This document shows positions 28,444-46,971 of a stretch of DNA of 64,000 nt, piece by piece. The position numbers and the translations under genes are program-made. Each line of letters begins with the position of its first letter. Positions within the stretch are counted from its first letter, which is position 1. Source of the DNA: Sutcliffiella sp. FSL R7-0096 (lineage in GTDB: Bacteria; Bacillota; Bacilli; Bacillales; Bacillaceae_I); the NCBI RefSeq assembly GCF_038595065.1, contig NZ_CP152003.1, positions 2,150,001 to 2,214,000 of the forward strand, given 5' to 3'. Under the pieces are notes generated by a model. The model saw only the letters and a program-made list of their open reading frames with translations. It had not been told where the DNA came from and did not search any database.

Positions 28444-28624
28444 AGCTATTTTCGTAAACTTTGTTGCTTTTACGCACTTTTGAACCAACCGTTATATACC
28501 TTTTTGTCGTGCTCTTTCCCCGCACGACAAATATATTACGTGCATATCTAGAGTTGGTATGCAGTAAAAAGTCCAATTGCCGACTTTTTACTCGTGAATA
28601 GCAACAACCTTTGAGAAAAGAGCT
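28444..28624 (+). repeat. Family B inverted-repeat element, copy 1
   Basis: About 180 bp, from GCTATTTTCGTAAACTTTG to CAACCTTTGAGAAAAGAGC. The ends are imperfect inverted repeats of about 28 bp. Inside are GTCGTGC/GCACGAC (7-bp stem) and GTAAAAAGTC, CAATTGCC, GACTTTTTAC (perfect 10-bp stem). Further copies at 37640, 45331 and, inverted, 46823. It occupies most of the 297-bp dpaB-asd gap. Confidence 0.82.
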
Positions 28625-28651
28625 AATTAAAAATGGAGAGGTGCTTAATAG

Positions 28652-29695
28652 ATGAGTGGTTTACATGTAGCAGTAGTAGGCGCAACAGGAGCAGTAGGAC
28701 AACAGATGCTTCATACATTAGAAGAAAGAAACTTCCCGGTCAAGAAGCTTACGCTATTATCTTCGGAGCGCTCTGCAGGTAAGAAGGTACTTTTTAAAGG
28801 TGAAGAAGTTACTATTGAAGTTGCAACACCCGACAAATTTGAAGGTGTTCATATAGCATTATTCAGTGCAGGAGGAAGTGTATCCAAGGAGCTTGCACCG
28901 GAAGCCGCGAAACGTGGCGCCATTGTCGTGGATAACACAAGTTATTTCCGTATGGATCCAAATGTCCCATTGGTGGTTCCAGAAGTAAACGAAGAGGCCA
29001 TCAAATCTCATAATGGGATCATTGCCAACCCAAATTGCTCCACTATCCAAATGGTGGTTGCACTAGAGCCGATTCGTAAATCCTATGGACTGAATAAGAT
29101 AATTGTCAGCACGTATCAAGCTGTGTCAGGAGCTGGAGCTGCGGCGATTGAAGAACTTGAATCCCAATCACAAGCAATTCTGAATAACGAAACATTCACT
29201 CCTAATATTCTTCCTGTAAAAGGTGATAAGAAACACTACCAAATTGCTTTCAATGCGATTCCGCAAATTGATAAATTTGAAGACAACGGTTTTACTTTTG
29301 AAGAATTGAAAATGATCAATGAAACGAAAAAGATCATGCACGACCAAAATCTTCAGGTTGCAGCAACATGTGTACGACTACCAGTTGTAACAGGACATTC
29401 AGAGTCTGTATATATTGAAGTAGAAGACGAAAATGTGACTGTTCAAGATGTTAGAAGATTGTTGGAAAACGCGCCTGGTGTGGTACTGCAAGATAAACCG
29501 GAAGAACAAGTCTACCCGATGCCGGCTGATTGTGTCGGTTCTAACTATGTATTTGTAGGCAGAATCAGACAGGACCTGGATAACAAAAAAGGATTTCACC
29601 TCTGGGTGGTATCCGATAACCTGTTAAAGGGTGCCGCATGGAATTCCGTTCAAATTGCAGAAAGCCTAGTGAAACTTGGAGTAATCAACCAATAA
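28652..29695 (+). CDS. asd: aspartate-semialdehyde dehydrogenase
   Basis: Reduces aspartyl phosphate to aspartate semialdehyde, the branch point to lysine, diaminopimelate, dipicolinate, methionine and threonine. [11 protein letters not shown] binds [13 protein letters not shown] contains the catalytic Cys near residue 129; [10 protein letters not shown] is also conserved. 347 residues. ATG 28652 follows GGAGAGG. A terminator separates it from dapG, although all three DAP genes are adjacent. The upstream family B repeat would be within its leader or promoter region. Confidence 0.97.
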
Positions 29696-29708
29696 TAATC
29701 ACAAAGAA

Positions 29709-29737
29709 TAAGGTCTCTAAAAAGGACCTTTTCTTTT
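29709..29737 (+). terminator. asd terminator
   Basis: AAGGTC, TCTAAAAAG, GACCTT, then TTTTCTTTT. Confidence 0.75.
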
Positions 29738-29869
29738 CGGCTGTATTTTTTGATGCCACCATTCTTCAATCTTGAACAGTGTGTGCCATTCCTAAAGGGG
29801 CTGGTACTATTTTCTGCACAGCTTTCGTATGTATTAAAGATGTTTCTAAACCGGATGAGGTGTCGATAT

Positions 29870-31141
29870 ATGAAAATAATTGTTCAGAAGTTTGGTGGGA
29901 CGTCAGTCAGGGATGAGGCAAGCAGACTTGCTGCAGTCAAACATATTAAAAAGGCTGTTGATGAGGGATACAAAGTGGTTGTCGTGGTGTCTGCAATGGG
30001 GAGAAAAGGGGAGCCTTATGCGACCGATACACTACTCAGCCTAGTAGAAACTGGAAATGATTGCGTTTCAAAACGGGAGATAGATATGCTGTTATCCTGT
30101 GGGGAAATCATCTCTTCCATTGTTTTTAGTAACCTCTTACAAAACCATGGAATCTCTGCAACCGCCCTAAATGGTCCTCAAGCAGGGTTCCGTACAAATA
30201 ATGATCACACAAATGCCCGTATCATAGAAATGAAGTGTGATAGGCTCTTAGAAATGGTAAAATTATATCAAGTGGTGGTAGTTGCAGGCTTTCAAGGTGA
30301 AACGAAGAATGGGGACATTTGTACAATCGGGCGTGGAGGAAGTGATACGTCCGCTGCTGCTTTGGGCGCTGCCATTCAAGCGGAGTGGATCGATATTTTT
30401 ACGGATGTAGAGGGTGTTATGACAGCAGATCCCCGCATTGTAAAAGATGCCTCCCCTTTACCTGTTGTCAGTTATAATGAAATTTGCAATATGGCATACC
30501 AAGGAGCAAAGGTCATCCATCCTCGAGCTGTCGAGATTGCCATGCAATCCAAGATACCGATACGGATAAGGTCAACCTATTCCAATTCAACCGGGACGCT
30601 TGTAACTTCGCTTGATAAATTAGGAAAGGGTGCGGATGTCAAGGATCGCTTGATAACTGGAATTGCGCATGTCCCTAATGTGACACAAATAAAAGTGTTT
30701 GCTAAAGAAGGCGATTATGGGATACAAACGGAAGTTTTCCGGGCCATGGCCAACGAACAGATAAGTGTCGACTTTTTCAACATATCGCCGACAAGTGTCG
30801 TTTACACGGTAACAGACGAAAAGAGCGAAAAAGCGATAAATGTCCTAAAGAAGTTGGGATATGATCCGAAAGTAAACCGTCACTGTGCGAAAGTGGCAAC
30901 AGTGGGAGCGGGAATGACAGGGGTTCCTGGCGTTACATCCAAAATCGTTACTGCTCTTTCAGAACTAGGGATACAAATTCTTCAATCGGCAGACAGCCAC
31001 ACGACAATTTGGGTGTTGGTGAAACAGGAAGATATGATACGTGCAGTGAACGCTTTACACAAAGCCTTCAGTCTGGCGAGAAAACAAGTAACCATCCTAC
31101 ACCCAATCTCAGAAGAAGGAGAGAAAAAAGTACATGATTAA
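29870..31141 (+). CDS. dapG: aspartokinase I, diaminopimelate-sensitive
   Basis: First step of the aspartate pathway (L-aspartate to aspartyl phosphate). KIIVQKFGGTSV is the N-terminal substrate motif, FTDVEGVMTADPRIV the kinase signature, and two ACT domains lie at about 265-405. Synteny with asd and dapA identifies it as the DAP-inhibited isozyme rather than LysC or YclM. ATG 29870 follows GATGAGGTG; the open frame upstream to 29750 is not used. At 423 residues it is about 19 longer at the C terminus than B. subtilis DapG (VTILHPISEEGEKK tail). It overlaps dapA by 8 bases. Confidence 0.95.
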   Translation: MKIIVQKFGGTSVRDEASRLAAVKHIKKAVDEGYKVVVVVSAMGRKGEPYATDTLLSLVETGNDCVSKREIDMLLSCGEIISSIVFSNLLQNHGISATALNGPQAGFRTNNDHTNARIIEMKCDRLLEMVKLYQVVVVAGFQGETKNGDICTIGRGGSDTSAAALGAAIQAEWIDIFTDVEGVMTADPRIVKDASPLPVVSYNEICNMAYQGAKVIHPRAVEIAMQSKIPIRIRSTYSNSTGTLVTSLDKLGKGADVKDRLITGIAHVPNVTQIKVFAKEGDYGIQTEVFRAMANEQISVDFFNISPTSVVYTVTDEKSEKAINVLKKLGYDPKVNRHCAKVATVGAGMTGVPGVTSKIVTALSELGIQILQSADSHTTIWVLVKQEDMIRAVNALHKAFSLARKQVTILHPISEEGEKKVHD

Positions 31142-32006
31142 CTTTGGTAAAGTGTCAACAGCGATGGTGACACCGTTTGATAATAAAGGAAATATCGACT
31201 TTGAGAAAACAACTCAATTAGTAAACTATCTTATAAAAAATGGTACGGATTCCCTTGTTGTCGCAGGGACAACAGGAGAGTCTCCAACGCTATCAACGGA
31301 AGAAAAGCTTGCACTTTTCTCACATGTCGTCAAAGTGGTGGAAGGTAGAATACCGGTAGTTGCGGGTACCGGAAGCAATAATACTCGTGCCTCCATCGAT
31401 CTGACAAAGAAAGCAGAAGCCGCCGGAGTGGATGCCATCATGCTGGTAGCCCCTTATTACAGCAAACCTAGCCAAGAAGGATTGTATCAACACTTTAAAG
31501 CGATCGCAGCGGAAACGTCCTTGCCTGTGATGCTATATAACATACCAGGGCGTTCTGTTGTAAATATGTCAGTGGACACCATTGTGCGCTTGGCGGCAGA
31601 GAAGAACATCATGGCCATGAAAGAAGCAAGCGGTAACCTGGATGCTATGACAGAAATAATCGCAAACACTCCGGATGACTTTGTGCTTTATAGTGGGGAT
31701 GATGGATTGACCCTCCCTGTATTATCCATCGGAGGTAACGGAGTGGTATCCGTCGCATCCCATGTGTTAGGAAATGAAATGCAAGCAATGATCCGTGCAT
31801 TCGAATCAGGAGAGTATGCAAATGCTGCAAAACAGCATCAAAGGCTACTTCCGATAATGAAGGGATTATTCAGCGCACCAAGTCCTTCACCAGTAAAAAC
31901 CGCCCTTCAGTTAAAAGGATTGGATGTTGGTGGGGTAAGACTGCCGTTGGTTCCCCTAAATGAAGAAGAGAGAAACACGTTAGCAGCCCTTTTACGTACA
32001 ATTTAA
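31134..32006 (+). CDS. dapA: 4-hydroxy-tetrahydrodipicolinate synthase
   Basis: Condenses pyruvate with aspartate semialdehyde for lysine, DAP and, in the sporangium, dipicolinate. GTTGESPTLS binds substrate, YNIPGRSV carries the catalytic Tyr near 135, and MAMKEASGN the Schiff-base Lys near 163. 290 residues. It starts inside the dapG end (8-base overlap), so translation is coupled. A strong terminator follows. Confidence 0.97.
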   Translation: MINFGKVSTAMVTPFDNKGNIDFEKTTQLVNYLIKNGTDSLVVAGTTGESPTLSTEEKLALFSHVVKVVEGRIPVVAGTGSNNTRASIDLTKKAEAAGVDAIMLVAPYYSKPSQEGLYQHFKAIAAETSLPVMLYNIPGRSVVNMSVDTIVRLAAEKNIMAMKEASGNLDAMTEIIANTPDDFVLYSGDDGLTLPVLSIGGNGVVSVASHVLGNEMQAMIRAFESGEYANAAKQHQRLLPIMKGLFSAPSPSPVKTALQLKGLDVGGVRLPLVPLNEEERNTLAALLRTI

Positions 32007-32018
32007 CTTTTCATGAAT

Positions 32019-32053
32019 GGTCAAAGCGCTTTTGTGCGCCTTGGCCTTTTTGT
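32019..32053 (+). terminator. dapG-dapA terminator
   Basis: GGTCAAAGCGC, loop TTTTGT, GCGCCTTGGCC and five T. Confidence 0.85.
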
Positions 32054-32091
32054 TTGCACTTTTCTCCAAATGCCAGTTATTATAATATTTC

Positions 32092-32121
32092 TTGTATTCC
32101 AATTCTTGCATACGTTATAAT
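32092..32121 (+). promoter_or_regulatory. Sigma-A promoter candidate for the RNase J gene
   Basis: TTGTAT, 18-bp spacer, TATAAT, about 130 bases before the start codon. Confidence 0.5.
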
Positions 32122-32253
32122 TATTTCAAATGACATGGAGCGGTTATTAATTTGGCACTTGTAAGCTGAACATTTAATAAATCTCTGGAGGATGCAAAAA
32201 AAACGTGCATTATCGTCATATTTCATTTTTACATACATGTAGGAGGTAAAAAA

Positions 32254-33918
32254 GTGAATACACCACAGATAGAGAAATTAAAAGTTTTTGCCCTCGGGGG
32301 GATCGGGGAAATTGGGAAGAACATGTACGTATTGGAAGCCGATGATTCCATCTATATCATGGATACAGGGGTTATGATCCCAGAAGACGGAATGCTTGGA
32401 ATTGATATGGTTATTCCTGATGTTACATATCTTTCAGACAACAAAGAAAAAATCAAAGGAATATTCCTCACCCATGGACACGAAGAACATATGGGCGGTT
32501 TGGCATATATCCTAAGAAAGTTGAAGGCCCCTGTTTACGGTACAAGGCTGACATTGGCACTTGCCAAAGAGCTTGTTAATGGGCTTGGCTCCCCAGGTCA
32601 TATAGAGTTCAAAGAAGTAGATGAAAATACCGTACTTGAACTCGAACATGCCACAGTCACCTTCTTCAGGACAAATCATAGCATTCCGGATTCTGTCGGC
32701 TTATGCTTTCATACTTCACAAGGTGCAATCGTACATACAGGGGACTTTAAGTTCGATCAGTCCCAGCTGTCACAGAATACCGATCTTGGTAAAATAGCGG
32801 AAATTGGAAATAAAGGAGTGCTTTGTGTCTTATCCGATAGCACTAATGCTGAAAAGCCAGGTTATACCATTTCGGAATCTGTAGTAAGGCAGGAAATTGC
32901 AGACGTAACTTATAATGCCAAGGGACGTGTATTTGCTGCATGCTTGTCAACAAATGTCGTACGGATCCAACAAATTGTTCAAGCAACCATCGACAGCAAT
33001 AGAAAACTTGTTGTTGTTTCCCACCCGACAGACCGTAACTTCAATATTGCAACGGAATTGGAGTATCTGCACATTCCTGATGATCTGCTTATACCTGTCA
33101 ATGAACTAGGAAGCATTAATGATGATAAGGTGGTCGTTTTGACGATCGGGACGCATTCCCAACTGATGTCTTCCCTTTTGAAGATGGCAAGGGGTACCCA
33201 TAAGCATGCGCAAATCAAACCACATGACATCGTGATGATTGCCGCATCCCCATCGCCAGGAACCGAACTGACGGTTGCTAAAGTGATAGATAAACTATAC
33301 CGTGCGGGAGCAGTTGTGATCTATGGTCAGAAAAAGATCCATTCTTCCGGACATGGTTGCCAGGAAGAGCTAAAGCTGATGATGAATCTCCTCAAGCCTC
33401 AATATGTCATCCCTATTCAAGGGGAGTTTAAGATGCAAAGGGCGCTTTCAAGAGTTGCAGAAAGCGTTGGAATAGACAAAGATAACATCTTTTTATTGAA
33501 TAAGGGTGAAGTGATTGAATTTAATAAGGGTGTAGGAAAATATGCCGGTAAAGTCTATGCAGGGAATGTCCTTATTGACGGACTGGGTGTAGGAGATATC
33601 GGGAACATCGTATTACGGGACCGCCGATTATTGTCCCAGGATGGAATCATGGTGGTGGTGGTGTCCATCAGTAAGAACCAAAAAAGAATTGTCGCAGGTC
33701 CAGAAATTCTTTCAAGAGGCTTTGTGTATGTGCGCGAGTCGGAAGAGCTGTTGGATAAAGCAAATTCCATCGTAACGGAGATATTGGATAATGCTGTGAA
33801 GGAACAGGTTTTGGAATGGTCTAGTTTGAAGCTTAAGATTAGGGAATCCTTGAATCAGCATCTGTATGAGAAAACAAGACGTCGTCCGATGATACTTCCA
33901 ATTATCATGGAAGTATAA
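32254..33918 (+). CDS. rnjB: ribonuclease J (position of B. subtilis RNase J2)
   Basis: Metallo-beta-lactamase/beta-CASP RNase, 554 residues, endo- and 5'-exonuclease family. Domains: lactamase 1-200, beta-CASP about 210-380, lactamase end, C-terminal domain from about 450. The metal motif reads HGHEEH at residues 74-79: the histidines are kept but Asp78 of the HxHxDH motif is Glu. HTGDFKFD and HSSGHG are intact. B. subtilis J2 at this locus has a more degenerate motif, so this copy looks closer to active. GTG 32254 follows TAGGAGGTA. Named by synteny. Confidence 0.88.
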   Translation: MNTPQIEKLKVFALGGIGEIGKNMYVLEADDSIYIMDTGVMIPEDGMLGIDMVIPDVTYLSDNKEKIKGIFLTHGHEEHMGGLAYILRKLKAPVYGTRLTLALAKELVNGLGSPGHIEFKEVDENTVLELEHATVTFFRTNHSIPDSVGLCFHTSQGAIVHTGDFKFDQSQLSQNTDLGKIAEIGNKGVLCVLSDSTNAEKPGYTISESVVRQEIADVTYNAKGRVFAACLSTNVVRIQQIVQATIDSNRKLVVVSHPTDRNFNIATELEYLHIPDDLLIPVNELGSINDDKVVVLTIGTHSQLMSSLLKMARGTHKHAQIKPHDIVMIAASPSPGTELTVAKVIDKLYRAGAVVIYGQKKIHSSGHGCQEELKLMMNLLKPQYVIPIQGEFKMQRALSRVAESVGIDKDNIFLLNKGEVIEFNKGVGKYAGKVYAGNVLIDGLGVGDIGNIVLRDRRLLSQDGIMVVVVSISKNQKRIVAGPEILSRGFVYVRESEELLDKANSIVTEILDNAVKEQVLEWSSLKLKIRESLNQHLYEKTRRRPMILPIIMEV

Positions 33919-33931
33919 TATCGTCAAAATG

Positions 33932-33967
33932 AACCGCAATGGGATATAGTGCCCATTGCGGTTTTTA
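33932..33967 (+). terminator. RNase J gene terminator
   Basis: AACCGCAATGGG, ATATAGTG, CCCATTGCGGTT and five T; perfect 12-bp stem. Confidence 0.9.
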
Positions 33968-33978
33968 TATACATTGGT

Positions 33979-34117
33979 TCAACTCCTGAAGACTTCCGTT
34001 TTAGGTGTTCTTATCGCAGGGCTGTGCTTGAGCCTCCTCACATCGCTTCGGTGGTCTCAAACTACCGCTACCCTCCGCTTGAGTCTCACACCATGCACAG
34101 TAATGTTCAAGGGGAGT
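33979..34117 (+). repeat. Family A interspersed repeat, copy 4
   Basis: Diverged copy: ACTCCTGAAGACTTCCGTTT, TTGAGCCTCCTCACATCGCTT, shown in part, GGTGGTCTCAAACTACCGCTA in part, then GAGTCTCACACCATGCACAG and TGTTCAAGGGGAG. It fills the gap between the rnjB terminator and tepA. Confidence 0.75.
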
Positions 34118-34210
34118 CAAAAGAACTGTTGAGTTACGAATGAAATATGTACTGACGTCAATACTAGAGAAGAATACACAATTTATTTAGGGACGGAAGG
34201 AGATCATCAT

Positions 34211-34966
34211 ATGCCTGATTTTACATACCAGTCATCTGAACAACCTCAGCAGGAACCGAACAAGCAAGATGCAGGTAAGGATTCCTTGGTCAATAAAATC
34301 CAACAACTTGGTCAAACAAATGTAGCACAAATGCCTTCGGATTCAAAAATACATTGCTTGACAATCGTGGGTCAAATTGAGGGCCATGTCCAATTGCCGC
34401 CTCAAAACAAAACGACCAAATATGAACATGTCATTCCGCAAATTGTTGCTATAGAGCAAAATCCGAACATTGAGGGGCTGCTTGTCATTTTGAATACGGT
34501 TGGAGGGGATGTGGAAGCGGGTCTGGCTATTTCGGAAATGCTAGCTTCCTTATCTAAACCTACCGTTTCTCTTGTACTTGGCGGAGGCCATTCTATTGGT
34601 GTGCCAATCGCTGTGTCTTGTGATTATTCTTTCATAGCCGAAACGGCCACAATGACCATCCATCCTGTTCGATTGACAGGTTTGGTTATTGGGGTCCCGC
34701 AAACGTTTGAGTATCTCGATAAAATGCAAGACCGTGTTATTAATTTTGTCACCAAGAACTCAGGTATTACAGAGGAAAAATTCAAGGAGCTTATGCTTTC
34801 CAAGGGGAATCTTACTCGTGATATCGGTACCAATGTTGTCGGTGCGGATGCGGTGGAGTATGGATTGATCGATCAGGTGGGCGGTGTAGGAGAAGCCATC
34901 AAAAAGCTGAATGCCCTTGTGGAAGCGAACCAGGATAAATCAGAAGAAGGGAAGATGCTACAATGA
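34211..34966 (+). CDS. tepA: TepA, ClpP-class serine protease-like protein
   Basis: ClpP/SppA-fold protein; B. subtilis TepA (YmfB) is a germination-related protease that degrades small acid-soluble spore proteins. [18 protein letters not shown] and [17 protein letters not shown] contain the GxSxG-type serine (HSIG), and [10 protein letters not shown] the histidine. The N-terminal 45 residues are polar and low in complexity. 251 residues, ATG 34211 after GGAAGGAGA. It overlaps ylzJ by 4 bases. Confidence 0.92.
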
Positions 34967-35175
34967 TTCTCTATACAACCATGCCCCAGGAGTTGATTTT
35001 CCCTGTGGAAAATGGAGAATTTGAAAAGCAACGGGTGGTAGATTTTAATGGAGTGTCACTAATGGTGCAACAAACAGATATGAATGCCTACCAGATTGTA
35101 CGTAATTTGAGTACAGACCCTGCACACTATTTGAACAGTGAGTATTCTCCAGGACAAACCATTAATTTTCTGTAA
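34963..35175 (+). CDS. ylzJ: YlzJ-like protein
   Basis: 70-residue protein of the YlzJ family, found between tepA and spoIIIE in Bacillus; function unknown. Starts [14 protein letters not shown] and contains [20 protein letters not shown] and [15 protein letters not shown]. No membrane segment or recognised catalytic motif. ATGA overlap with tepA implies coupled translation. Confidence 0.85.
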
Positions 35176-35180
35176 CACCC

Positions 35181-35208
35181 TTTCAAGAGTTTGGGCTTAT
35201 GATATAAT
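35181..35208 (+). promoter_or_regulatory. Sigma-A extended -10 promoter of spoIIIE
   Basis: TTTCAA, 16 bases, TATAAT with TG one base upstream (TGATATAAT). The -35 is poor, so the extended -10 would matter. Confidence 0.6.
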
Positions 35209-35224
35209 ACAAGCAACAGAGGAA

Positions 35225-35258: not shown

Positions 35259-35285
35259 CTCATTATGGTCAGATAGGTGAGAATA

Positions 35286-37634
35286 ATGTCAAAGCGAAAA
35301 AAGAGACAAAGAAAAACCAAAAATCGGGATGAATGGAAACGGACGGTCACCTTTGAAGTGATGGGGTTACTGTTGCTTGCCATTACATGTATAGCAATTG
35401 CCAAGCTTGGTATGGTCGGGCATACCTTTGTATTATTGTTTCGCTTTTTTAGTGGAGAATGGTACATGCTAATGCTCCTCGGGCTTTTGATCCTGTCTGG
35501 ATATATCATCTGGAAAAGAGAGCTACCCACTTTTTTCTCAAGGCAATTGGTCGGTGTATATGTCATCATGATGTCTGTGTTGCTACTTAGTCATGTTACG
35601 CTATTTAGAATGCTTTCTCGTGGGGGCTCCTTTGCAGATCCCTCAGTAATCGGCAATACTTGGGAGCTTTTCTGGTTAGAAGTAAACGGAGAAACGAGTA
35701 CGACAGACCTTGGTGGCGGAATGATGGGGGCTATATTATTCGCTCTGTTTCATCTTCTCTTTGATGCAAGGGGTGCCCAGTGGATAGCCATGATCTTCAT
35801 TGTAATCGGCATCATTTTGGTGACGGGGAAATCCTTGAATGACACTGTCATAAAAGTTGCTGTGGGGCTGTTTACTTTTGCAAAAAATCAGTGGTTGGCT
35901 TTCATGGACGACATGAAAGGCTGGAAAGAAGACAGCAATAAACGCAAAAAAGAAAAGCAAGCGGAAGATAAAAAGCAAAAAGAAGAGAAAAAGGCAACAG
36001 CAGCAGAAGAAGTCATGGTCATGGAAAATGAATCTGTGGAAGAGATCATTTCTCCACCTATCATTTCCTCTTTTAATGATAGAGAAGAGGTTATGTTTCA
36101 GGAAGAAAAGCAATCATCAACGTCCAATGCACAGGACGGAGAAAATCAGGAAGATTCAGGCGAGCTAATTGCAGGCCCTATGGCATTTACAGAAGTGGAA
36201 AACAAGGAATATGTCCTTCCTTCCCTTGAGCTGTTAAACAAGCCCATCACGAATCACCAGACAACAGAGCACGAAAATATATACCAGAACGCAAGAAAAC
36301 TAGAGAAAACTTTTGCAAGTTTCGGAGTGAAAGCAAAAGTGACAAAAGTACACCTTGGTCCTGCAGTGACGAAATATGAGGTGTATCCTGATGTTGGAGT
36401 GAAGGTCAGTAAAATAGTGAATCTAAGTGATGATTTAGCACTTGCACTTGCAGCAAAAGATATACGTATCGAGGCGCCGATACCCGGTAAATCTGCCATC
36501 GGGATCGAAGTGCCAAATAATGAAGTTGCAATGGTATCACTACGTGAAGTATTGGATACAAAACAAGCCGAAAAGCCGGATGCAAAGTTGCTTATCGGAT
36601 TGGGACGTGATATATCAGGGGATTCCGTTGTTGCGGAGCTCAATAAAATGCCACATCTACTTGTTGCCGGAGCGACAGGTAGTGGAAAGAGTGTGTGTAT
36701 TAATGGTATCATCACAAGTATTTTGGTCCGTGCAAAGCCACATGAAGTAAAAATGATGATGATTGACCCAAAAATGGTGGAATTAAACATGTACAACGGG
36801 GTTCCCCACCTTCTAGCACCTGTTGTGACCGATCCAAAAAAGGCTTCACAGGCTTTGAAAAAAGTCGTTAATGAAATGGAGCGGCGCTATGAGTTGTTCT
36901 CTCATACTGGCACAAGAAATATTGAAGGCTATAATGACTACATAAAAAGACATAACCAGGATGAAGAAGCAAAACAGCCATCCCTACCATACATTGTCGT
37001 TATTGTCGATGAGTTAGCCGACCTGATGATGGTGGCATCATCAGATGTGGAGGATTGCATTACAAGACTCGCACAAATGGCTCGTGCTGCAGGCATACAC
37101 CTAATTATTGCAACGCAACGACCATCAGTTGATGTCATTACAGGAGTAATTAAAGCGAATATCCCATCAAGAATTGCTTTCAGCGTATCATCTCAAACGG
37201 ATTCCAGAACTATTTTGGACATGGGGGGAGCGGAGAAGCTACTTGGCAGAGGGGATATGCTGTTCCTGCCTGTAGGTGCCTCCAAGCCAATAAGAGTTCA
37301 AGGTGCTTTCCTTTCCGATGAAGAGGTAGAGCGGATTGTGGATTTTGTCATCGATCAGCAAAAAGCACAATATCAGGAGGAAATGATTCCTCAAGATATT
37401 AACGAAGACGTGGAAGAAGTGGACGATGATCTTTATGATGATGCCGTTCAGCTCGTATTAGAAATGCAGACAGCTTCCGTATCAATGCTACAGCGCCGTT
37501 TCAGAATCGGGTACACAAGGGCTGCCAGGCTCATTGATGCAATGGAAATCAGGGGAGTCGTCGGTCCATATGAAGGAAGTAAGCCACGAACAGTGTTGGT
37601 ATCGGGGAATCAAAATGAAGATGTAGGATCTTAA
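35286..37634 (+). CDS. spoIIIE: DNA translocase SpoIIIE (FtsK family)
   Basis: Pumps the chromosome into the forespore across the septum. Four N-terminal membrane segments lie within residues about 20-180, then a charged linker rich in K/E (about 210-330), then the motor with Walker [14 protein letters not shown] near 460 and Walker [13 protein letters not shown], and a C-terminal winged-helix gamma domain ([19 protein letters not shown]) that reads SRS sites. ATG 35286 follows AGGTGAG; GTG 35277 lies in that site. 782 residues. Confidence 0.97.
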
Positions 37635-37639
37635 CGATA

Positions 37640-37822
37640 GGCTCTTTTCGTAAACTTTGTTCCTTTTACGAATTATTAAACCGTCCGTTACCTTCCATAC
37701 TGTCGTGCTCTTTTCCCTGCTGTACTGAAGAAATTACTTGCACCTTTAGGGTCTGATAGCAGTAAAAAGTCCAATTGCCGACTTTTTACAGGTAAATAGC
37801 AACAATCTTTGAGAAAAGAGCC
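37640..37822 (+). repeat. Family B inverted-repeat element, copy 2
   Basis: Starts GGCTCTTTTCGTAAACTTTG and ends AATCTTTGAGAAAAGAGCC. The hairpin GTAAAAAGTC/GACTTTTTAC is conserved; the GTCGTGC stem is not closed. It is flanked by TAACGATA (37632-37639) and TAACAATA (37823-37830), an 8-bp direct repeat with one mismatch that looks like a target-site duplication. Lies 6 bases after the spoIIIE stop. Confidence 0.82.
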
Positions 37823-37842
37823 TAACAATAAAAATGCAGTTG

Positions 37843-37995: not shown

Positions 37996-38721
37996 ATGAC
38001 GATTCGGTCAGACAGCAGGCATTTATATTTACTGGTTGTAGACAAATTGAAGCAAGATATTGAGAACAAGGTGTATAAAGAAAAAGAGAAATTACCTTCC
38101 GAATTCGAATTGTCTCGACGCTTAGGGGTAAGTAGAGCTACATTAAGAGAAGCTTTACGTGTACTCGAAGAAGAAAATATCGTAGTAAGAAGGCATGGGG
38201 TAGGTACATTTGTTAATTCCAAACCGGTCTTCTCCTCTGGAATTGAACAATTGAATTCTGTGACAGAAATGATTTCACAAGCGGGTATGAGACCCGGAAC
38301 AGTTTTCTTGACATCTACCATTGAAACGCCATCCGAAGAAGAACTAACAAAGTTCAATAACCCTGCAATCAAGGAGGTCCTTCATTTCGAGAGGGTACGA
38401 ACTGCCAACGACCTTCCGGTGGTATATTGTATCGATAAGATTCCGACGACCATTGTCGAGGACTATCAATCTTATAAGAATGAATCCTTATTGAAACTCC
38501 TCGAGAAGGAAGCGGGCAGATATATTTCCTATGCGGTCACACATATCGAACCACTTGGATATCATGATAAAATTTCACCAATTCTAGAATGTGAACCTGA
38601 AACAGCACTGCTTGTATTGAAACAAATGCATTATGATCAGAATGACGAACCTATTTTGTATTCGCTAAATTATTTCAGGGCTGATAAATTCAGTTTCCAT
38701 GTATTGAGAAAGCGCCCATAA
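37996..38721 (+). CDS. ymfC: GntR/HutC family transcriptional regulator
   Basis: 241-residue regulator with N-terminal winged helix-turn-helix (residues about 10-78: [41 protein letters not shown], given here as a pattern in part [20 protein letters not shown]) and a C-terminal UTRA ligand-binding domain. Orthologue in place of B. subtilis YmfC; its effector is unknown. ATG 37996 follows a GGGGGAT site. In B. subtilis ymfD and ymfE (transport-related) follow; here they are absent. Confidence 0.9.
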
Positions 38722-38723
38722 AG

Positions 38724-40243: not shown

Positions 40244-40246
40244 CAT

Positions 40247-41530
40247 ATGGAAAAGATTGAATTTAACCAACTAGCGGAAACTCTGTACCATGAGACCTTG
40301 GATAATGGGTTAGAAGTATACCTTTTGCCTAAAGATGGCTTTCATAAGACCTATGCCACGTTTACAACGAAGTATGGTTCCATTGATAATAAATTCGTAC
40401 CGATTGGTGAAGACGATTTTATAACGGTTCCCGATGGTATCGCTCATTTTTTGGAACATAAACTATTTGAAAAAGAGCATGGGGATGTATTCCAGGATTT
40501 CAGCAAGCAAGGGGCATCTGCCAATGCTTTCACTTCCTTTACAAGGACTGCCTATCTTTTCTCCAGTACATCCAATGTGGAAAAGAACCTTGAAACATTG
40601 ATGGACTTTGTGCAAGCTCCCTATTTTACAGAAAAAACGGTAGAAAAGGAAAAAGGCATCATTGGTCAAGAGATCACCATGTATGAGGATAATGCTGATT
40701 GGCGTGCCTATTTCGGATTGATTGAAAGCATGTTCCATCATCACCCTGTGAAAATAGACATTGCCGGGACCATCGATTCGATATCCAAAGTAACGAAAGA
40801 CCTTTTATATACTTGCTATGAGACGTTCTACCATCCAAGCAATATGCTGTTATTCATAGTTGGGCCGATGAATACGGAAGAAATGATGGGGTTCATCAAG
40901 GATAACCAAACCAAAAAGACATTCAAGGAGCAGGAAGAAATAAAGCGTCAATTTGATGACGAGCCTGCTACTGTCAGTGAGAAAAAGAAAGTGCTCAAAA
41001 TGAACGTTCATACTTCTAAATGCATGATAGGAATTAAAGAATCCAACCCGACGAAACAGGGGGAGGACCTTTTAAAGCATGAACTTACGGTGAATATCCT
41101 CTTGGATCTGCTCTTTGGCAAAAGCTCTGATCATTATCAGAAATTGTATGATGATGGTTTAATCGATGAGACTTTTGCTTATGATTACACCGGTGAAAAT
41201 GGTTTTGGATTTGCCATGCTTGGAGGAGATACCTCCGAGCCGGATAAGTTGGCTGAAAGAGTACAACATATCCTGCTTGAGTTTGACCCAACCTCCATTA
41301 AAGAGGAGGAGTTAGAACGGATTAAGAAAAAGAAAATCGGTTCTTTCTTACGGGCTCTTAACTCTCCTGAGTTCATTGCAAACCAGTTTACGCGTTATGC
41401 ATTTAATGACATGGACCTTTTTGAAGTAACCCCTCAGCTTGAGAAAATAACACTCGAGGACCTTAATAGGGTAGCCACTGAATTTATTAAAGAAGAGGCT
41501 TTTACAATCTGTCAGGTTGTGCCAAAATAA
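40247..41530 (+). CDS. ymfH: YmfH, M16-family zinc peptidase (catalytic subunit)
   Basis: 427-residue M16 peptidase with intact HFLEH motif in GIAHFLEHKLFEKEHGD (near residues 66-70) and the downstream EKEKGIIGQEITMYEDN segment with the third ligand Glu. Probably pairs with YmfF to cleave peptides, as in AlbE/AlbF-type systems, but the substrate is unknown. Start ATG 40247 lies 3 bases after the ymfF stop with GGGAAGGAGG inside ymfF. Confidence 0.92.
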   Translation: MEKIEFNQLAETLYHETLDNGLEVYLLPKDGFHKTYATFTTKYGSIDNKFVPIGEDDFITVPDGIAHFLEHKLFEKEHGDVFQDFSKQGASANAFTSFTRTAYLFSSTSNVEKNLETLMDFVQAPYFTEKTVEKEKGIIGQEITMYEDNADWRAYFGLIESMFHHHPVKIDIAGTIDSISKVTKDLLYTCYETFYHPSNMLLFIVGPMNTEEMMGFIKDNQTKKTFKEQEEIKRQFDDEPATVSEKKKVLKMNVHTSKCMIGIKESNPTKQGEDLLKHELTVNILLDLLFGKSSDHYQKLYDDGLIDETFAYDYTGENGFGFAMLGGDTSEPDKLAERVQHILLEFDPTSIKEEELERIKKKKIGSFLRALNSPEFIANQFTRYAFNDMDLFEVTPQLEKITLEDLNRVATEFIKEEAFTICQVVPK

Positions 41531-41540
41531 AAATAATACG

Positions 41541-41578
41541 AGGGAGTGCGGTCCTTGATGGAACCGGCTCCTTTATTT
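41541..41578 (+). terminator. Possible weak terminator between ymfH and ymfI
   Basis: AGGGAG-TG-CGGT and ACCG-G-CTCCTT arms around CCTTGATGGA, then TTTATTTT; the stem has bulges. Confidence 0.5.
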
Positions 41579-41601
41579 TAGTGTAAAAAGGGATGAGGTC
41601 A

Positions 41602-42318
41602 ATGAGTGGAACAGCATTAATTATAGGGGCGAGTGGGGATATCGGGAAGGAAATAGCCAAAACACTTTTAGCGGAAGGGTATACTACCTATCTCCACTAT
41701 AACCGGGATAAAAAGACAATCCTCGAATTGGTGGAGGAGTATGGCGCAGATAAAATAACGCCTATTCAATCCGATTTAACAGAAGATATGGGTGTCCAGT
41801 TAATAAAAGAGAGTGTATTTTCTACTATTGATACCATTGTTTATAATGCAGGATTTACCTATTATGGACTTATGACAGATATTGATGAAAAAACAAAGAG
41901 AAAGATGGTGTCGCTTAACATAACATCATTATATTCAACCGTTCAGGCTTTTTTGCCGGAGATGCTTAGTAATCGAAATGGAAAAATTGTCGTCATCTCT
42001 TCCATTTGGGGGGAAGTAGGAGCTTCATGTGAAGTGCTCTACTCGATGACGAAAGGTGCCCAAATTTCATTTGTGAAAGCACTGGCAAAAGAAGTGGCTC
42101 TAAATGGCGTAAGGGTGAATGCCATCGCACCCGGAGCAGTATCAACAAAAATGCTTGAATCCTTTTCAGAGGAAGAAAAGAAGGAAATAAGTGCTGAAAT
42201 CCCCATGGGCAGGTTGGCTCTACCGCGTGAAGTTGCAGATTCTGTCAGCTTTCTCTTGTCTGAAAAGTCTTCCTACATAACCGGTCAGGTGTTAGGGGTT
42301 AATGGCGGTTGGAATTAG
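41602..42318 (+). CDS. ymfI: short-chain dehydrogenase/reductase (FabG-like)
   Basis: 238-residue SDR oxidoreductase. GASGDIGKEIAKTL binds NAD(P), YNAGFTYYG is the NAG-type motif, and YSMTK supplies the catalytic Tyr and Lys with a Ser near IVVISSIWG. LSEKSSYITGQVLGVNGGW is the usual C terminus. The substrate is unknown. ATG 41602 has GATGAGG close upstream; ATG 41593 in frame has no site. Confidence 0.9.
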   Translation: MSGTALIIGASGDIGKEIAKTLLAEGYTTYLHYNRDKKTILELVEEYGADKITPIQSDLTEDMGVQLIKESVFSTIDTIVYNAGFTYYGLMTDIDEKTKRKMVSLNITSLYSTVQAFLPEMLSNRNGKIVVISSIWGEVGASCEVLYSMTKGAQISFVKALAKEVALNGVRVNAIAPGAVSTKMLESFSEEEKKEISAEIPMGRLALPREVADSVSFLLSEKSSYITGQVLGVNGGWN

Positions 42319-42387
42319 TAGGCAATGCATAAATTGAAAAAGACCTTCACATACTAACTCTTGAACATATTGGAAGGAGGAGTTAAT

Positions 42388-42645
42388 ATGTCAGTACTTG
42401 AAAACTGGGAACAATGGAAAGGCTTCTTAGGAGATCGATTGAACCATGCAGAGCATGAAGGAATGGACAATGGTGCCATTTCTCAACTTGCGTATGAAAT
42501 TGGTGACTATCTTGCAAAAGAAGTGGAAGCAAAAAATCCACAGGAAAGAGTGTTAGCGGATCTTTGGAAAGTGGCTAGTCCTGAAGAGCAACATGCGATT
42601 GCCAATATGATGGTTAAATTGGTTCAAAACGATTCAACGCATTAA
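42388..42645 (+). CDS. ymfJ: YmfJ, DUF3243 protein
   Basis: 85-residue acidic small protein of unknown function, conserved in Bacillus at this position. Starts MSVLENWEQWKGFLGDRL and contains LAYEIGDYLAKEVEAKNPQERVLADLWKVA, quoted here in part. All-helical appearance, no cysteines and no membrane segment. ATG 42388 follows GGAAGGAGG. Confidence 0.87.
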   Translation: MSVLENWEQWKGFLGDRLNHAEHEGMDNGAISQLAYEIGDYLAKEVEAKNPQERVLADLWKVASPEEQHAIANMMVKLVQNDSTH

Positions 42646-42669
42646 GAGAGGCCACAACCTCTCTTTTTT
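42646..42669 (+). terminator. ymfJ terminator
   Basis: GAGAGG, CCACAA, CCTCTC, TTTTTT. Confidence 0.87.
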
Positions 42670-42698
42670 GTTTGCCCTGTTTTTGAAGTCCTGTATAA

Positions 42699-42805
42699 CC
42701 CCTGTAGATTTCCGTTCCAGCTGCTCGCTTAACCAAAGGGTGGTGCTTGAGCCACCTCACGACGCTGGGGAGTCTCACAACTTGCACTCCAATCTACAAG
42801 GGAAT
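42699..42805 (+). repeat. Family A interspersed repeat, copy 5 (internal deletion)
   Basis: CCCTGTAGATTTCCGTTCCAG, shown in part, then TGCTTGAGCCACCTCACGA and GAGTCTCACAACTTGCACTCC and CTACAAGGG. The middle (CTCAACCTACCGCTACC) is missing, as if the two GTCTCA motifs had recombined. Fills the ymfJ-ymfK gap. Confidence 0.77.
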
Positions 42806-42924
42806 GTTAAAGAAGTCCAAATTTCAGAGGATCGCAAGGAATTGCTTTCTTATTAAGGGATTATTGGATATTATAGAAGTAACATATGACAGGACGAAAC
42901 GTACTGAAAGGGTGGAGGGGTTTG

Positions 42925-43716
42925 ATGGAGAAAAAAGAGTGGTATTTAGAATATGAGATACATATCAACAGGCCGGGGTTATTAGGTGACATTGCATCCC
43001 TTTTAGGTATGTTATCCGTTAACATTGTCACAATCAATGGAGTGGATGATGCAAGGAGGGGAATGTTACTTTTAAGCGATTCAAATGAGCAAATAGTCCG
43101 TCTTGAATCTATATTGAATACAATGGATAATATAACTGTTACTAAGCTAAGAGAGCCAAAATTAAGAGATCGTTTGGCGGTAAGACATGGAAGGTACATT
43201 CAGCGAGATGCGGATGATAAGAAAACCTTCCGATTCGTCCGGGATGAACTGGGGCTACTGGTAGATTTTCTGGCAGAGCTTTTCAAACAAGATGGACATA
43301 AACTAATCGGAATCAGAGGGATGCCACGCGTGGGTAAGACAGAGTCCATTGTTGCTTCGAGCGTCTGTGCCAATAAAAGATGGCTCTTTGTTTCCAGTAC
43401 TTTGCTTAAACAAACCATCCGGAGTCAATTAATCGAAGATGAGTACAATGTGGACAACTTATTCATTATTGATGGAATAGTATCAACTAAAAGGGCGAAC
43501 GAAAAGCATTGGCAGCTTATCCGCGAAATAATGCGTATTTCTGCTGTAAAAGTGGTTGAACATCCTGATATTTTCGTGCAAAATACAGAATATAAGCTTG
43601 ATGATTTCGACTATATCATTGAACTCAGAAATAATGAAGATGAGGAAATCACTTACGATGTGGTTCAACCAAATAATATGTTTGAAGAGAATCCTTTTGG
43701 GGGCTTTGATTTCTAA
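42925..43716 (+). CDS. ymfK: YmfK, ACT-like domain plus P-loop protein (DUF3388)
   Basis: 263 residues, function unknown. Residues about 7-77 (YEIHINRPGLLGDIASLLGML, split; VNIVTINGVDD) look like an ACT amino-acid-binding fold. A Walker A-type loop GMPRVGKT is at 132-139 within GIRGMPRVGKTESIVAS, and LFIIDGIVST could be the Walker B strand. The combination suggests ligand-controlled nucleotide binding, but that is inference. ATG 42925 follows GGTGGAGGGG. It is followed by rodZ after 22 bases. Confidence 0.85.
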   Translation: MEKKEWYLEYEIHINRPGLLGDIASLLGMLSVNIVTINGVDDARRGMLLLSDSNEQIVRLESILNTMDNITVTKLREPKLRDRLAVRHGRYIQRDADDKKTFRFVRDELGLLVDFLAELFKQDGHKLIGIRGMPRVGKTESIVASSVCANKRWLFVSSTLLKQTIRSQLIEDEYNVDNLFIIDGIVSTKRANEKHWQLIREIMRISAVKVVEHPDIFVQNTEYKLDDFDYIIELRNNEDEEITYDVVQPNNMFEENPFGGFDF

Positions 43717-43738
43717 ATAACGTTGGAAGGTGTAAGTA

Positions 43739-44626
43739 TTGACAGAATTAGGTAATAGGTTAAAGCAAGCAAGAGAAGAGAAAGGCATGTCACTGGAGGA
43801 TTTGCAAACAGCGACGAAAATACAGAAAAGATACTTGATTGGTATTGAGGAAGGCAATTACGCCATCATGCCAGGTCAATTCTATGCACGTGCTTTTATT
43901 AAGCAGTACTCCGAAGCAGTAGGGTTGGACCCCGAGCTTATCTTTGAAGAATACAAACAGGATATCCCTGCAAATGAAAAAGATGAGATTCCTCCATTAT
44001 CGAGAGTGAAAACTAGAAAGCAAGTTCCGACAAAAAATAACAAGGTACTAAATTTTATACCAAAAGTATTTATGTTCTTGGCTTTTGTGGCTGTGGTAGC
44101 CATTCTCTATATCCTTTTTCAGAACTGGGGAGTGGGAAATTCCACTGATACGCAAGAAGACAACAATCGAGGAGTAGTCTATGATCCTGCTACTACCGAT
44201 AATGGCGGTGAAGGGGAAGACACCAACGAAGAAAATGTGAACGAGGAAGAACCTGCAGAAGAGCCAGAAGAGGAGCAGGTAGAATCTTCAACCGGCACAC
44301 TGACAGAGGTTTCTTCAAACCGACCTACTGCTACGCTGGAACTGAAGGATACTGATACATTCGAAGTGGAACTTTCAGCAAAAGGCGGAAACACATGGGT
44401 AGGAATCAGCAATTCAGAAGGTGAGTCCTTTCATAGCAAAGAATTGGTTGATGGAGAAACGGAGACATTCAATCTTTCTGAAGAAAATGAAGTAATTTTC
44501 AATGTTGGCTGGGTCCCTGCCACTGAAATTAAAATTAACGGCAAAGCATTTGAGTTCCCTTTTCCGGTAGATGAAGTGACAACTCAGAAAGTCACTATTA
44601 AATTTGTATCAAATGGACAACAATAA
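43739..44626 (+). CDS. ymfM: RodZ-like cell-shape protein
   Basis: Type II membrane protein of the RodZ family, links MreB filaments to the membrane. N-terminal HTH_25 domain (residues 1-70: LKQAREEKGMSLEDLQTATKI in part), one membrane helix about 103-125 (IPKVFMFLAFVAVVAILYIL), an acidic Glu/Asn-rich linker (about 140-185) and the C-terminal beta domain (DUF4115). 295 residues. The start is TTG 43739, with GGAAGGTG upstream. A terminator follows. Confidence 0.92.
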   Translation: MTELGNRLKQAREEKGMSLEDLQTATKIQKRYLIGIEEGNYAIMPGQFYARAFIKQYSEAVGLDPELIFEEYKQDIPANEKDEIPPLSRVKTRKQVPTKNNKVLNFIPKVFMFLAFVAVVAILYILFQNWGVGNSTDTQEDNNRGVVYDPATTDNGGEGEDTNEENVNEEEPAEEPEEEQVESSTGTLTEVSSNRPTATLELKDTDTFEVELSAKGGNTWVGISNSEGESFHSKELVDGETETFNLSEENEVIFNVGWVPATEIKINGKAFEFPFPVDEVTTQKVTIKFVSNGQQ

Positions 44627-44653
44627 AGTCATCAGGATGATGGCTTTTTTTGT
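44625..44653 (+). terminator. rodZ terminator
   Basis: AAAGTCATC, AG, GATGATGGCTTTTTTT with a G-U pair. Confidence 0.75.
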
Positions 44654-44669
44654 ACAGATTTCCCTATCG

Positions 44670-44699
44670 TTAGACAAACCTGTATATTTTATGTATAGT
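44670..44699 (+). promoter_or_regulatory. Candidate sigma-A promoter of pgsA
   Basis: TTAGAC, 18-bp spacer, TATAGT, about 34 bases before the GTG start. Confidence 0.4.
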
Positions 44700-44732
44700 G
44701 GAAAAGCAATATTGAATGCTGGAGGAATGATT

Positions 44733-45311
44733 GTGAATTTACCTAACAAAATAACTGTTTCAAGAATCCTAATGATACCTATTTTTATGGTACTCATGCT
44801 TGTACCTTTCAATTGGGGAGACTTCTATCTCGGAGATCACTCAATCCCATACGCACATCTTCTGGCAGCACTAATATTTATCATTGCATCCATTACCGAT
44901 TGGGTTGATGGTTATTATGCTAGAAAATTAAATATGGTGACAAACCTCGGGAAGTTCCTTGATCCTCTTGCAGATAAGTTGCTCGTTTCTGCAGCACTTA
45001 TTGCGCTTGTTGAGCTTCAATTGGCTCCAGCGTGGATCGTTATAGTCATCATAAGCAGGGAGTTCGCTGTTACCGGATTGCGTTTGGTACTTGCAGGTGA
45101 GGGGGAGGTTGTCGCTGCAAATATGCTTGGGAAAATTAAAACATGGGCACAGATCATTGCTGTTTCTGCTTTATTACTACATAACCTGCCATTTGCACTT
45201 ATCGGTTTCCCATTTGATATGCTTGCACTTTGGGTAGCGATGATCTTCACGGTAGTTTCCGGCTGGGATTATTTCTATAAAAACAGACAGGCTTTTATGA
45301 ATTCCAAGTAA
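44733..45311 (+). CDS. pgsA: phosphatidylglycerophosphate synthase
   Basis: Membrane CDP-alcohol phosphatidyltransferase that makes phosphatidylglycerol phosphate from CDP-DAG (product of CdsA) and glycerol 3-phosphate; PG is also needed for lipoteichoic acid. The signature DGYYARKLNMVTNLGKFLDPLADK (quoted as D-G-x2-A-R-x8-G-x3-D-x3-D) is complete. Four to five membrane segments. GTG 44733 follows CTGGAGGA and gives 192 residues beginning MNLPNKITVSRI, matching B. subtilis; longer in-frame starts read through the rodZ terminator. Confidence 0.95.
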   Translation: MNLPNKITVSRILMIPIFMVLMLVPFNWGDFYLGDHSIPYAHLLAALIFIIASITDWVDGYYARKLNMVTNLGKFLDPLADKLLVSAALIALVELQLAPAWIVIVIISREFAVTGLRLVLAGEGEVVAANMLGKIKTWAQIIAVSALLLHNLPFALIGFPFDMLALWVAMIFTVVSGWDYFYKNRQAFMNSK

Positions 45312-45330
45312 AATCGGACCTTTTGTAAGA

Positions 45331-45510
45331 GGCTATTTTCGTAAATTTTGTTGCTTTTACGTATTTTTAAACCGTCCGTTATATTCCTTACTGTCTTGCT
45401 CTTTTCCCTGCAATACTAAATCTGCTACTTGCATGTTTAGAGTAAGTAAGCTGAAAAAAGTCCAATTGCCGACTTTTTACTGTGAATAGCAACAATCTTT
45501 GAGAAAAGAG
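45331..45510 (+). repeat. Family B inverted-repeat element, copy 3
   Basis: Starts GGCTATTTTCGTAAATTTTG and ends CAATCTTTGAGAAAAGAG. The internal AAAAAGTCCAATTGCCGAC core is identical to copies 1 and 2. TTTTGTAA occurs just before (45321-45328) and just after (45511-45518), a possible 8-bp duplication. It fills the pgsA-cinA gap and ends 35 bases before cinA. Confidence 0.82.
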
Positions 45511-45545
45511 TTTTGTAAAAAGAGCTTTAAAAAGGGGAGAGTTCC

Positions 45546-46790
45546 ATGATTAAAAACGCAGAGATTATTGCTGTAGGTTCTGAATTGCTGCTCGGGCAAA
45601 TTTGTAATTCGAATGCACAATTTCTTTCAAAACAGCTTGCCGAACTTGGGGTGGACGTGTATTACCACACTGTAGTGGGAGATAATTCTTCAAGATTGAT
45701 GGATGCTATCAAAACAGCCAAACAACGTTCCAATCTCTTGATCTTCACTGGAGGTCTTGGACCAACGAAAGACGACCTAACCAAAGAAACGATTGCAAAA
45801 GTGTTAGACAAACAATTGGTAATGGATGATGAAGCAATGTCCAACATAGCAGCTTACTTCAAGAAATCAAAGCGAGTGATGAGCGAAAATAATAAAAAGC
45901 AAGCTCTCGTATTGGAGGGCTCTGCCATCTTGGCGAATGATTATGGAATGGCTCCGGGAATGGCGCTTAGTGACGGGTCTCATACTTATATGCTATTACC
46001 TGGCCCTCCCAAAGAGCTCCAACCGATGTTCTCCGTTTATGGAAGAGAGTACCTGCTAGAAATTCTAGGTGTAAAAGAACAGATTGTTTCCAAGGTTCTC
46101 CGTTTTTTCGGGATTGGCGAGTCCCAGCTTGAAACGGATATTTTAGACCTCATAGACAAGCAGACTAATCCTACTATCGCACCGCTTGCAGGGGACAACG
46201 AGGTGACATTAAGACTTACAGCAAAGCATCATTCCATCGAGGAGGCTAACCGTCTTATTGATCAATCCGAAAAGGAGATCTTGGATCGAGTCGGTGAATT
46301 CTTCTTTGGATACGATGAAGATACCATCTACTCTGTTCTATTTAATAAAATCCAAGAGTCCAAGTACACACTAAGCAGTGCAGAGAGCCTGACTGGAGGG
46401 TTATTCTCTGAAAGGATGACAAGCTTCACTGGTGCCTCTGAAGTAATAGAAGGTGCTGTTGTCAGCTATACCAATGGTGTAAAGGATAATGTGCTCGGCG
46501 TTAACAAACAAACACTTGAAAAAGATGGAGCGGTAAGTGAGCAGGCTGCAAAAGAAATGGCACTTGGAGTGAAGAAATTACTGCAAACGGATATCGGTAT
46601 CAGTTTCACTGGGGTTGCAGGTCCAGGAACAATGGATAATCAACCTGTCGGCACAGTGTTTATCGGAATAGCTCTACCAAATGATGAAACCATCGTTCAT
46701 GAAATCCATTTAGCAGGGACGAGAGATGGCATAAGACATAGATCAGCAAAATATGGCTGTCACTATCTATTGAAAGAATTGTTCAAGTAG
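45546..46790 (+). CDS. cinA: CinA family competence/damage-inducible protein
   Basis: 414 residues: an N-terminal MoaB/MogA-like domain ([26 protein letters not shown]) and a C-terminal nicotinamide-mononucleotide deamidase-like CinA domain ([26 protein letters not shown]). In Bacillus it lies directly before recA and in competent cells both are induced by ComK. ATG 45546 follows AAAAAGGGGAGAG. Here it is separated from recA by two repeat elements and a recA promoter. Confidence 0.95.
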
Positions 46791-46816
46791 TTGAGGGGAA
46801 CTTCAACTACTTTTAT
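46785..46816 (+). terminator. cinA terminator overlapping its stop codon
   Basis: AAGTAGTTGA, GGGGAACT, TCAACTACTT then TTATTATTTT. Confidence 0.75.
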
Positions 46817-46822
46817 TATTTT

Positions 46823-46971
46823 GGCTCTTTTCACAAAGTTTGTAGCTATTCACTACTTACACACTCTAAAATTTATAAGTAGTATTTTTAGTACAGCAGG
46901 AAAAAGAGCACGACATTAAGTAATATAACGATTGATTTAAAATGCGAAGAAGCAACAGTTTACGAAAACAG
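46823..46971 (-). repeat. Family B inverted-repeat element, copy 4 (inverted, hairpin deleted)
   Basis: Reads GGCTCTTTTCACAAAGTTTG at the left and GCAACAGTTTACGAAAACAG at the right, the reverse complement of the family; AAAAAGAGCACGAC is the GTCGTGCTCTTT block. The AAAAAGTC-CAATTGCC hairpin found in the other three copies is missing, giving about 149 bp. Confidence 0.72.

Follow-up and report, generated by a model that had tools for sequence, protein, structure and literature searches.

Four similar repeats lie between genes within 18.5 kb of the window, the 64,000-nucleotide stretch of the Sutcliffiella sp. FSL R7-0096 chromosome analysed here, and they raise the question of what they are, what moved them and what is carried inside them. 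The repeats are a recently active mobile element without its own enzyme. In our judgement they are, with a probability of about 0.88, non-autonomous mini-transposons (MITEs) moved in trans by a DDE transposase of the IS1595 family. The unusual part of the element is internal: a short motif, A, and a covarying hairpin, H.

A profile built from 38 copies, which gave no matches in a reversed 864-kb sequence, matches four elements in the window and no others, at the positions that a sequence-only reading of this DNA had assigned to them. Their imperfect inverted-repeat ends, also proposed by that reading, are confirmed: the two ends match at 23 of 31 positions in the consensus and at 19 of 24 in copies 1 and 2. 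The elements measure 149-183 bp, leaving room for about 60 codons at most. The order of parts in the Sutcliffiella consensus is left end, motif A (TGTCGTGCTCTTTTCC), hairpin H (GTAAAAAGTC CAATTGCC GACTTTTTAC; a 10-bp stem with an 8-base loop) and right end.

Every part can be located in copy 2 (37640-37822, plus strand), which lies between a gene ending at 37634 and a gene at 37996, presumably spoIIIE/ftsK-like and encoding a GntR-type regulator, respectively. On the plus strand follow its left terminal inverted repeat (37640-37667), motif A (37705-37715, GTGCTCTTTTC, complementary to the right end), hairpin H (37762-37789, GTAAAAAGTC-CAATTGCC-GACTTTTTAC) and right terminal inverted repeat (37794-37822). 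The adjoining octamers, TAACGATA at 37632-37639 and TAACAATA at 37823-37830, form a target duplication that agrees at seven of eight bases. Copy 1 (28444-28624, plus strand) is set between genes at 27755-28354 and 28652-29695, which we take from the Bacillus operon to be dpaB-like and asd-like; its motif A (28509-28519, plus strand, GTGCTCTTTCC) has one change relative to the consensus, and its hairpin H occupies 28564-28591 on the same strand. Copy 3 (45331-45510, plus strand) lies between a gene ending at 45311 and a gene at 45546, presumably pgsA-like and cinA-like, with motif A at 45396-45406 (TTGCTCTTTTC) and hairpin H at 45453-45480, both on the plus strand. Its right end is short of the last two bases and its left end has two extra bases (GA); allowing for this shift, the target duplication TTTTGTAA is still present. 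Copy 4 (46823-46971, minus strand), between what we assume to be the cinA-like and recA-like genes, retains motif A with one change (46901-46911, minus strand, GTGCTCTTTTT) but is a decayed copy, since it has lost two bases at the start of its left end as well as the internal hairpin. In the eight bases adjoining the ends of copies 1 and 4 there is no target duplication.

The host chromosome (4,908,118 bp) is Sutcliffiella horikoshii-like. Its CinA shares 97% identity with the CinA of Sutcliffiella horikoshii biET1, followed among named relatives by Sutcliffiella or Bacillus horikoshii-type strains. The 26-base core of the hairpin has 129 matches in the chromosome at up to three mismatches (reversed pattern, 0), a number not equal to that of copies, as the hairpin is doubled in a few of them and absent from others, copy 4 included; left ends number 90 at up to two mismatches (control, 0). 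The element is thus present in about a hundred or more copies, and the notion that it might lack other copies in the genome fails. That the four copies fall within 18.5 kb is correct but marks no special cluster: the matches listed are spread along the chromosome between positions 26 kb and 4,896 kb. With a length of about 183 bp, terminal inverted repeats, no transposase gene, dispersed copies and insertion polymorphism relative to biET1, the element has the defining features of a MITE.

Each of the 15 other genomes of the genus that were searched contains matches at E 1e-5 or better, those in two of them (G005 and G012) being to part of the element only. Further afield, a search for the end pattern GGCTNTTTTCNNAWANNTTGTTGC was positive in 158 of 397 Bacillales genomes and 60 of 135 genera, the control giving none. 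Among phage records only 25-bp matches were found, in 54 Listeria phage records (E 0.2), and viral contigs held no exact match of an end pattern. Plasmids gave two weak end matches. A small annotated hypothetical gene on plasmid NZ_CP033045.1 of Mesobacillus foraminis lies within 570 bp bounded by facing ends of this type (3459-4028 of locus L138). The sequence-only reading had not recognised the repeat as a named family, and no Rfam family matches the window at gathering score. In Rfam searches of four loci at E up to 1, the sole match to an element was a sub-threshold mir-255 on a hairpin (25.7 bits versus a gathering score of 50); L287 also contains a SAM riboswitch, but not within the element.

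Evidence of transposition comes from the junctions. An 864-kb portion of the genome contains 40 matches, 30 of them near-full. Perfect 8-bp target duplications flank 15 of the 29 near-full copies measured, and eight more agree at seven of eight bases; 23 of 29 copies therefore have seven or eight bases duplicated, compared with 12 of 500 random placements, the best of small end shifts being taken for copies and random placements alike. The 15 perfect duplications have a G+C content of 11%. Empty sites were sought in pieces of the biET1 genome because the intergenic sequences of the cinA region in more distant species are too diverged for clean junctions. Comparison of 67 copies (40 from the 864 kb and 27 from 800 kb of biET1) yielded ten empty sites, eight of which overlap by exactly 8 bp, and in example sites the unfilled target is present once. 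By direction, the 40 copies comprise six with an empty site in biET1, 13 shared by position, 17 with unclear junctions and four with unplaced flanks, while the 27 biET1 copies comprise four with an empty site in our genome, 14 shared, eight unclear and one without flanks.

All four window copies lie at sites where biET1 also holds a copy and are consequently older insertions; what biET1 has at the site of copy 2 is, however, a truncated copy belonging to another subtype, possibly the product of a separate insertion. Younger copies occur elsewhere, one pair being 99.4% identical. One nested copy is inserted in TTGAGAAA of the right end of an older copy that biET1 has alone; it is by such insertions into the right-end TTGAGAAA of an older copy that neighbouring pairs of copies are generated. 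The near identity of copies within one subfamily might also have been produced by homologous recombination, gene conversion or segmental duplication, a route that would require no transposition. For the copies that have empty sites it is refuted by the exactness of the ends, the 8-bp duplications and the unrelated sequences flanking the empty sites, and we assign it a negligible probability overall. Dependence on a transposase, as first proposed from the sequence, gains support from the 8-bp duplications, the biET1 empty sites, the nested copies and the high copy number, and also from the full-length insertion sequences described below, which are found in other genomes and have ends closely similar to those of the MITE.

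Two arrangements at single target sites were also seen. In genome G010, three tandem copies (2138-2702 of L093) follow one another at a spacing of 191 bp with about 8 bp (TATGAAAA) between each, looking as from repeated use of the same target. At 2096459-2096642 of the Sutcliffiella sp. FSL R7-0096 chromosome (G000:C1) lies an element with a different core and ends of a second IS1595 type (GGCTCTGTTAAA), and the same target site in biET1 (614061-614242; L050/L088) holds a MITE of the window's type, apparently two independent insertions at one site.

The four window copies are strictly intergenic, as had been noted from the sequence, and the tendency holds more widely: 37 of the 40 copies in the 864 kb overlap a called open reading frame (ORF) by no more than 30%, compared with 10.7% of random placements. 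The three exceptions overlap ORFs of 95 and 104 amino acids, one of them also touching an ORF of 203 amino acids; the ORFs were called mechanically, making these figures approximate. Between convergent genes there are none of 37 copies, versus about 4.9 expected by length (1.51-2.37 Mb of the genome), numbers that are approximate for the same reason.

Which enzyme might have moved these elements? Members of the IS1595 family usually generate 8-bp duplications and carry one transposase gene and, except for the IS1016 group, an N-terminal zinc finger (PMC8101967). A search of 249 genomes with PF12762 found matches in 53, in 47 of them above the curated cut-off, and 30 order-level loci and three from the genus were examined. 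Four order-level loci (L246, L248, L261 and L267) have MITE-type ends, open transposase frames and perfect 8-bp duplications. A fifth (L253) has MITE-type ends and a duplication at seven of eight bases, and another (L249) a weaker pair, with 14 of 24 positions matching between its ends. Counted by eye, the match to the left end of the MITE consensus is 22 of 24 bases in L261 and L267 and 21 of 24 in L246; L246 and L267 contain uninterrupted frames of 336 amino acids between their ends. L267 also contains a small extra frame. Nine order-level loci, including L247, L259, L263, L266 and L269, are likewise IS1595-family with 8-bp duplications but have the second Bacillales end type, GGCTCTGTTAAAGNNNAATGTTGA (GGCTCTGTTAAA or close variants), which differs in sequence from the ends of the MITE; the copy of this type in the Sutcliffiella genome has, as noted above, a different core. 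At the other 15 order-level loci no convincing end pair was found.

Within the genus, an IS1595 transposase is present in only one of 16 genomes, whose ends, GCCTGTTTTCGTAAATATTGTGG, are similar but not identical to those of the MITE. Loci L239 and L240 of Sutcliffiella genome G015 have GCCTGTTTTC-type ends, differing from the MITE ends at several positions, and perfect duplications. L239 encodes a zinc-binding domain and an IS1595 transposase domain, its transposase being assigned to the IS1595 family at 195.6 bits; the third genus locus, L241, yielded no such ends. The window genome itself has no PF12762 match, so the enzyme has been lost, is too diverged or came from outside. From 25 left ends followed 4 kb inward in this genome, most of them without a hairpin match among the matches listed and several being truncated copies, no unexplained partner end was found at transposon distance, and no autonomous element with the same ends was found to be resident. 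The mobilising enzyme is thus missing from a genome that has copies 99.4% identical. As to the full-length insertion sequence with the same ends that the sequence-only reading suggested looking for, closely similar ends occur on IS1595 elements in other genera, but no such element was found in the genome itself.

Two further arrangements of IS1595-type ends were observed. In G073, one of the 158 genomes with the end pattern, two facing ends stand 1625 bp apart (1675-3300 of L272) with AAAAATAA on both sides; between them lie a broken transposase of the IS1595 family and a DUF5680 gene that is apparently a passenger. A GC-rich repeat core (TTGATTTCCGCT..CTCGCTTTCCGCGGGG..) lies inside elements with GGCTNTTTTC ends in several genomes (L235, L236, L279, L280 and L085-L087); this Bacillales repeat seems to travel as cargo of an IS1595-type mini-element.

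Transposases of the ISL3 family also generate 8-bp duplications, and the ends of their elements start with GG(C/T/G)TCT. In favour of an ISL3 mobiliser, ISL3 elements of the Bacillales have ends GGTTCTAT...GTTGGGGT or GGGTCTTC... and AT-rich 8-bp duplications. An ISL3 transposase is, however, absent from the window genome and present in two of 16 genomes of the genus, where no recognisable end pair was found in the flanks, some of which are cut short by contig ends. At 30 order-level ISL3 loci, the best end pairs are unlike GGCTNTTTTCGTAAACTTTGTTGC beyond the first bases, compared with 21-22 of 24 bases for IS1595. Searches of the window genome, of its genus and of 150 genomes at order level (the same 30 loci) thus led to the rejection of this candidate, and we hold it to be very improbable. 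Given the end match of 21-22 of 24 bases and the 8-bp duplications on intact IS1595 elements elsewhere, an IS1595 transposase is the likely mobiliser. Such an enzyme would recognise the 24-30-bp ends (GGCTNTTTTCGTAAACTTTGTTGC and its imperfect inverse) and insert the element into AT-rich DNA, whereby 8 bp would be duplicated; insertions between genes would survive. The copies in this genome would have been moved by an IS1595 transposase that came from outside or has since been lost, and motif A and H would help the element itself to multiply.

The MITE resembles the IS1595 family (ISXO2-like; PF12762, NF033547) in its terminal repeats, at best 21-22 of 24 bases, and in its AT-rich 8-bp duplications, and differs in lacking a transposase and in having motif A and hairpin H. 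None of eight IS1595 elements carries motif A, with one mismatch allowed, or the H consensus, and the descent of the MITE from a particular insertion sequence by internal deletion is therefore unsupported. Five of the eight have other stems of at least 9 bp; one of these, in L272, is A/T-rich and resembles H in shape, but has neither the closing C-G pair nor the loop consensus of H.

Pairwise comparison of 38 copies from the window genome gives mean differences of 0.077 for motif A, 0.061 for H and 0.128 for the ends, compared with 0.330 for the remaining sequence. Thirty of 397 genomes, and nine of 135 genera, contain TGCTCTTTTC with GAAAAGAGCC 74-104 bases further on (control, 0). From loci of these genomes and further loci a script extracted 37 distinct best hairpins with an 8-base loop, of which 30 were kept; the seven dropped as plainly other stems (L345/L098, L350, L352, L051, L062, L072 and L073) include some copies that do have an imperfect H overlooked by the script. 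The 30 span seven genera (g1, g6, g29, g30, g63, g64 and g111). Motif A is present in two further genera: in g32 (G046) the stem measures 8 bp and the loop 10 bases, and in g26 (G083) no such hairpin was seen. Both-side changes occur in seven of the ten pairs of the stem, and 96.7% of cells pair (83.6% when shuffled), a figure inflated by the partial selection of hairpins for pairing, so that more weight belongs to the variety of pair types. Covariation scores 0.369 versus 0.114, and none of 500 shuffles reaches 0.369. A structure-blind alignment of 44 copies of the genus, taken from 96, gave both-side changes in three of the ten H pairs. The order of the modules varies in some genera; in G044, H precedes A. 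A doubled H, with about 28 bp inserted, was seen at separate loci (L015 1349-1557, L044 1502-1710 and L082 601-812), and this form may itself have spread.

Motif A may pair with the right end. On the plus strand, RNAalifold proposes a helix between the two that encloses H, and in the 44-copy alignment base 5 of the left end is paired with the right end in 15 copies (14 without G-U), the corresponding base of motif A in 43. The same alignment shows both-side changes in one of the nine pairs of this helix, the sole double change in its favour being in copy L058; motif A is essentially invariant, and covariation therefore cannot prove the pairing. An alternative pair, TGCTGTTTTC followed by GAAAASAGCC, gave three matches in three of 397 genomes (control, two), and the listed sequences resemble altered left ends of other elements. 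Motif A might equally be an extra protein-binding site, and H might act as RNA, in line with the mobile structured RNA also considered from the sequence, or as DNA.

For whose benefit would these modules be kept? If the host gained from them, the element might be a structured regulatory RNA, or an mRNA-processing or terminator module, retained or spread between genes. The strong conservation of motif A and H, the covariation of H across genera and the proposed helix around H would all suit such a role. Several results argue against it. At seven sites shared by position with biET1, the difference is 0.110 in motif A, 0.129 in H, 0.102 in the ends and 0.169 in the rest; the modules thus drift almost as fast as the rest and are not significantly lower (Fisher p 0.15 for A and 0.21 for H), while the ends are lower (p 0.003). 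Two of the seven pairs (1856618 and 2319697) show far greater divergence than the others and could be misaligned in part; when they are left out, H differs at 5/139 positions against 33/391 for the rest, a contrast that would fit mild host constraint. Several copies at shared sites have lost H or A by deletion, the low variation of both modules is a property of paralogous copies, and H is not listed as a terminator by a consensus scan. A host benefit is accordingly improbable. Motif A and H are likely kept because elements having them multiply, with at most mild host selection on single copies. More tentatively, the two could form a cis-acting module that raises the element's own transposition or survival, read either as RNA or as an extruded DNA hairpin, for example if motif A paired with the right end or if a host or transposase protein bound the module; it would be kept on that account in MITEs with IS1595 ends in at least seven Bacillales genera.

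Returning to mobilisation by an IS1595 transposase, the mode of movement is a known one, as IS1595-derived MITEs are known elsewhere. The ISHwa6-type MITE of Haloquadratum walsbyi, an archaeon, is 165 bp long, with 25-bp ends, 8-bp repeats and seven copies, and has been assigned to IS1595; the likeness is one of description, and the part of that description available names no internal modules (PMC3852290). Titles, the openings of abstracts and one passage of the literature on IS1595 MITEs include nothing on Bacillales repeats, and literature searches, sequence strings among them, whose scope left out most subscription papers and ISfinder, returned no account of the element. The bcr1 repeat of the Bacillus cereus group has a duplication, TTTAT, and a sequence that differ from those of the MITE. 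It is similar in belonging to the order Bacillales and in size range, being tabulated at 147-167 bp in PMC2267715, where a cited title gives it mobile element characteristics.

The end sequence ties very common repeats of the Bacillales, present in 158 of the 397 genomes, to one transposase family and would make their annotation possible. MITEs are usually viewed as passive deletion remnants of insertion sequences. The internal hairpin, with its compensatory changes and low variation among copies, suggests that a non-coding part under selection is present in some MITEs. If the cis-acting module is real, these elements would represent a mini-transposon lineage with its own selected non-coding machinery, beyond a deletion remnant.
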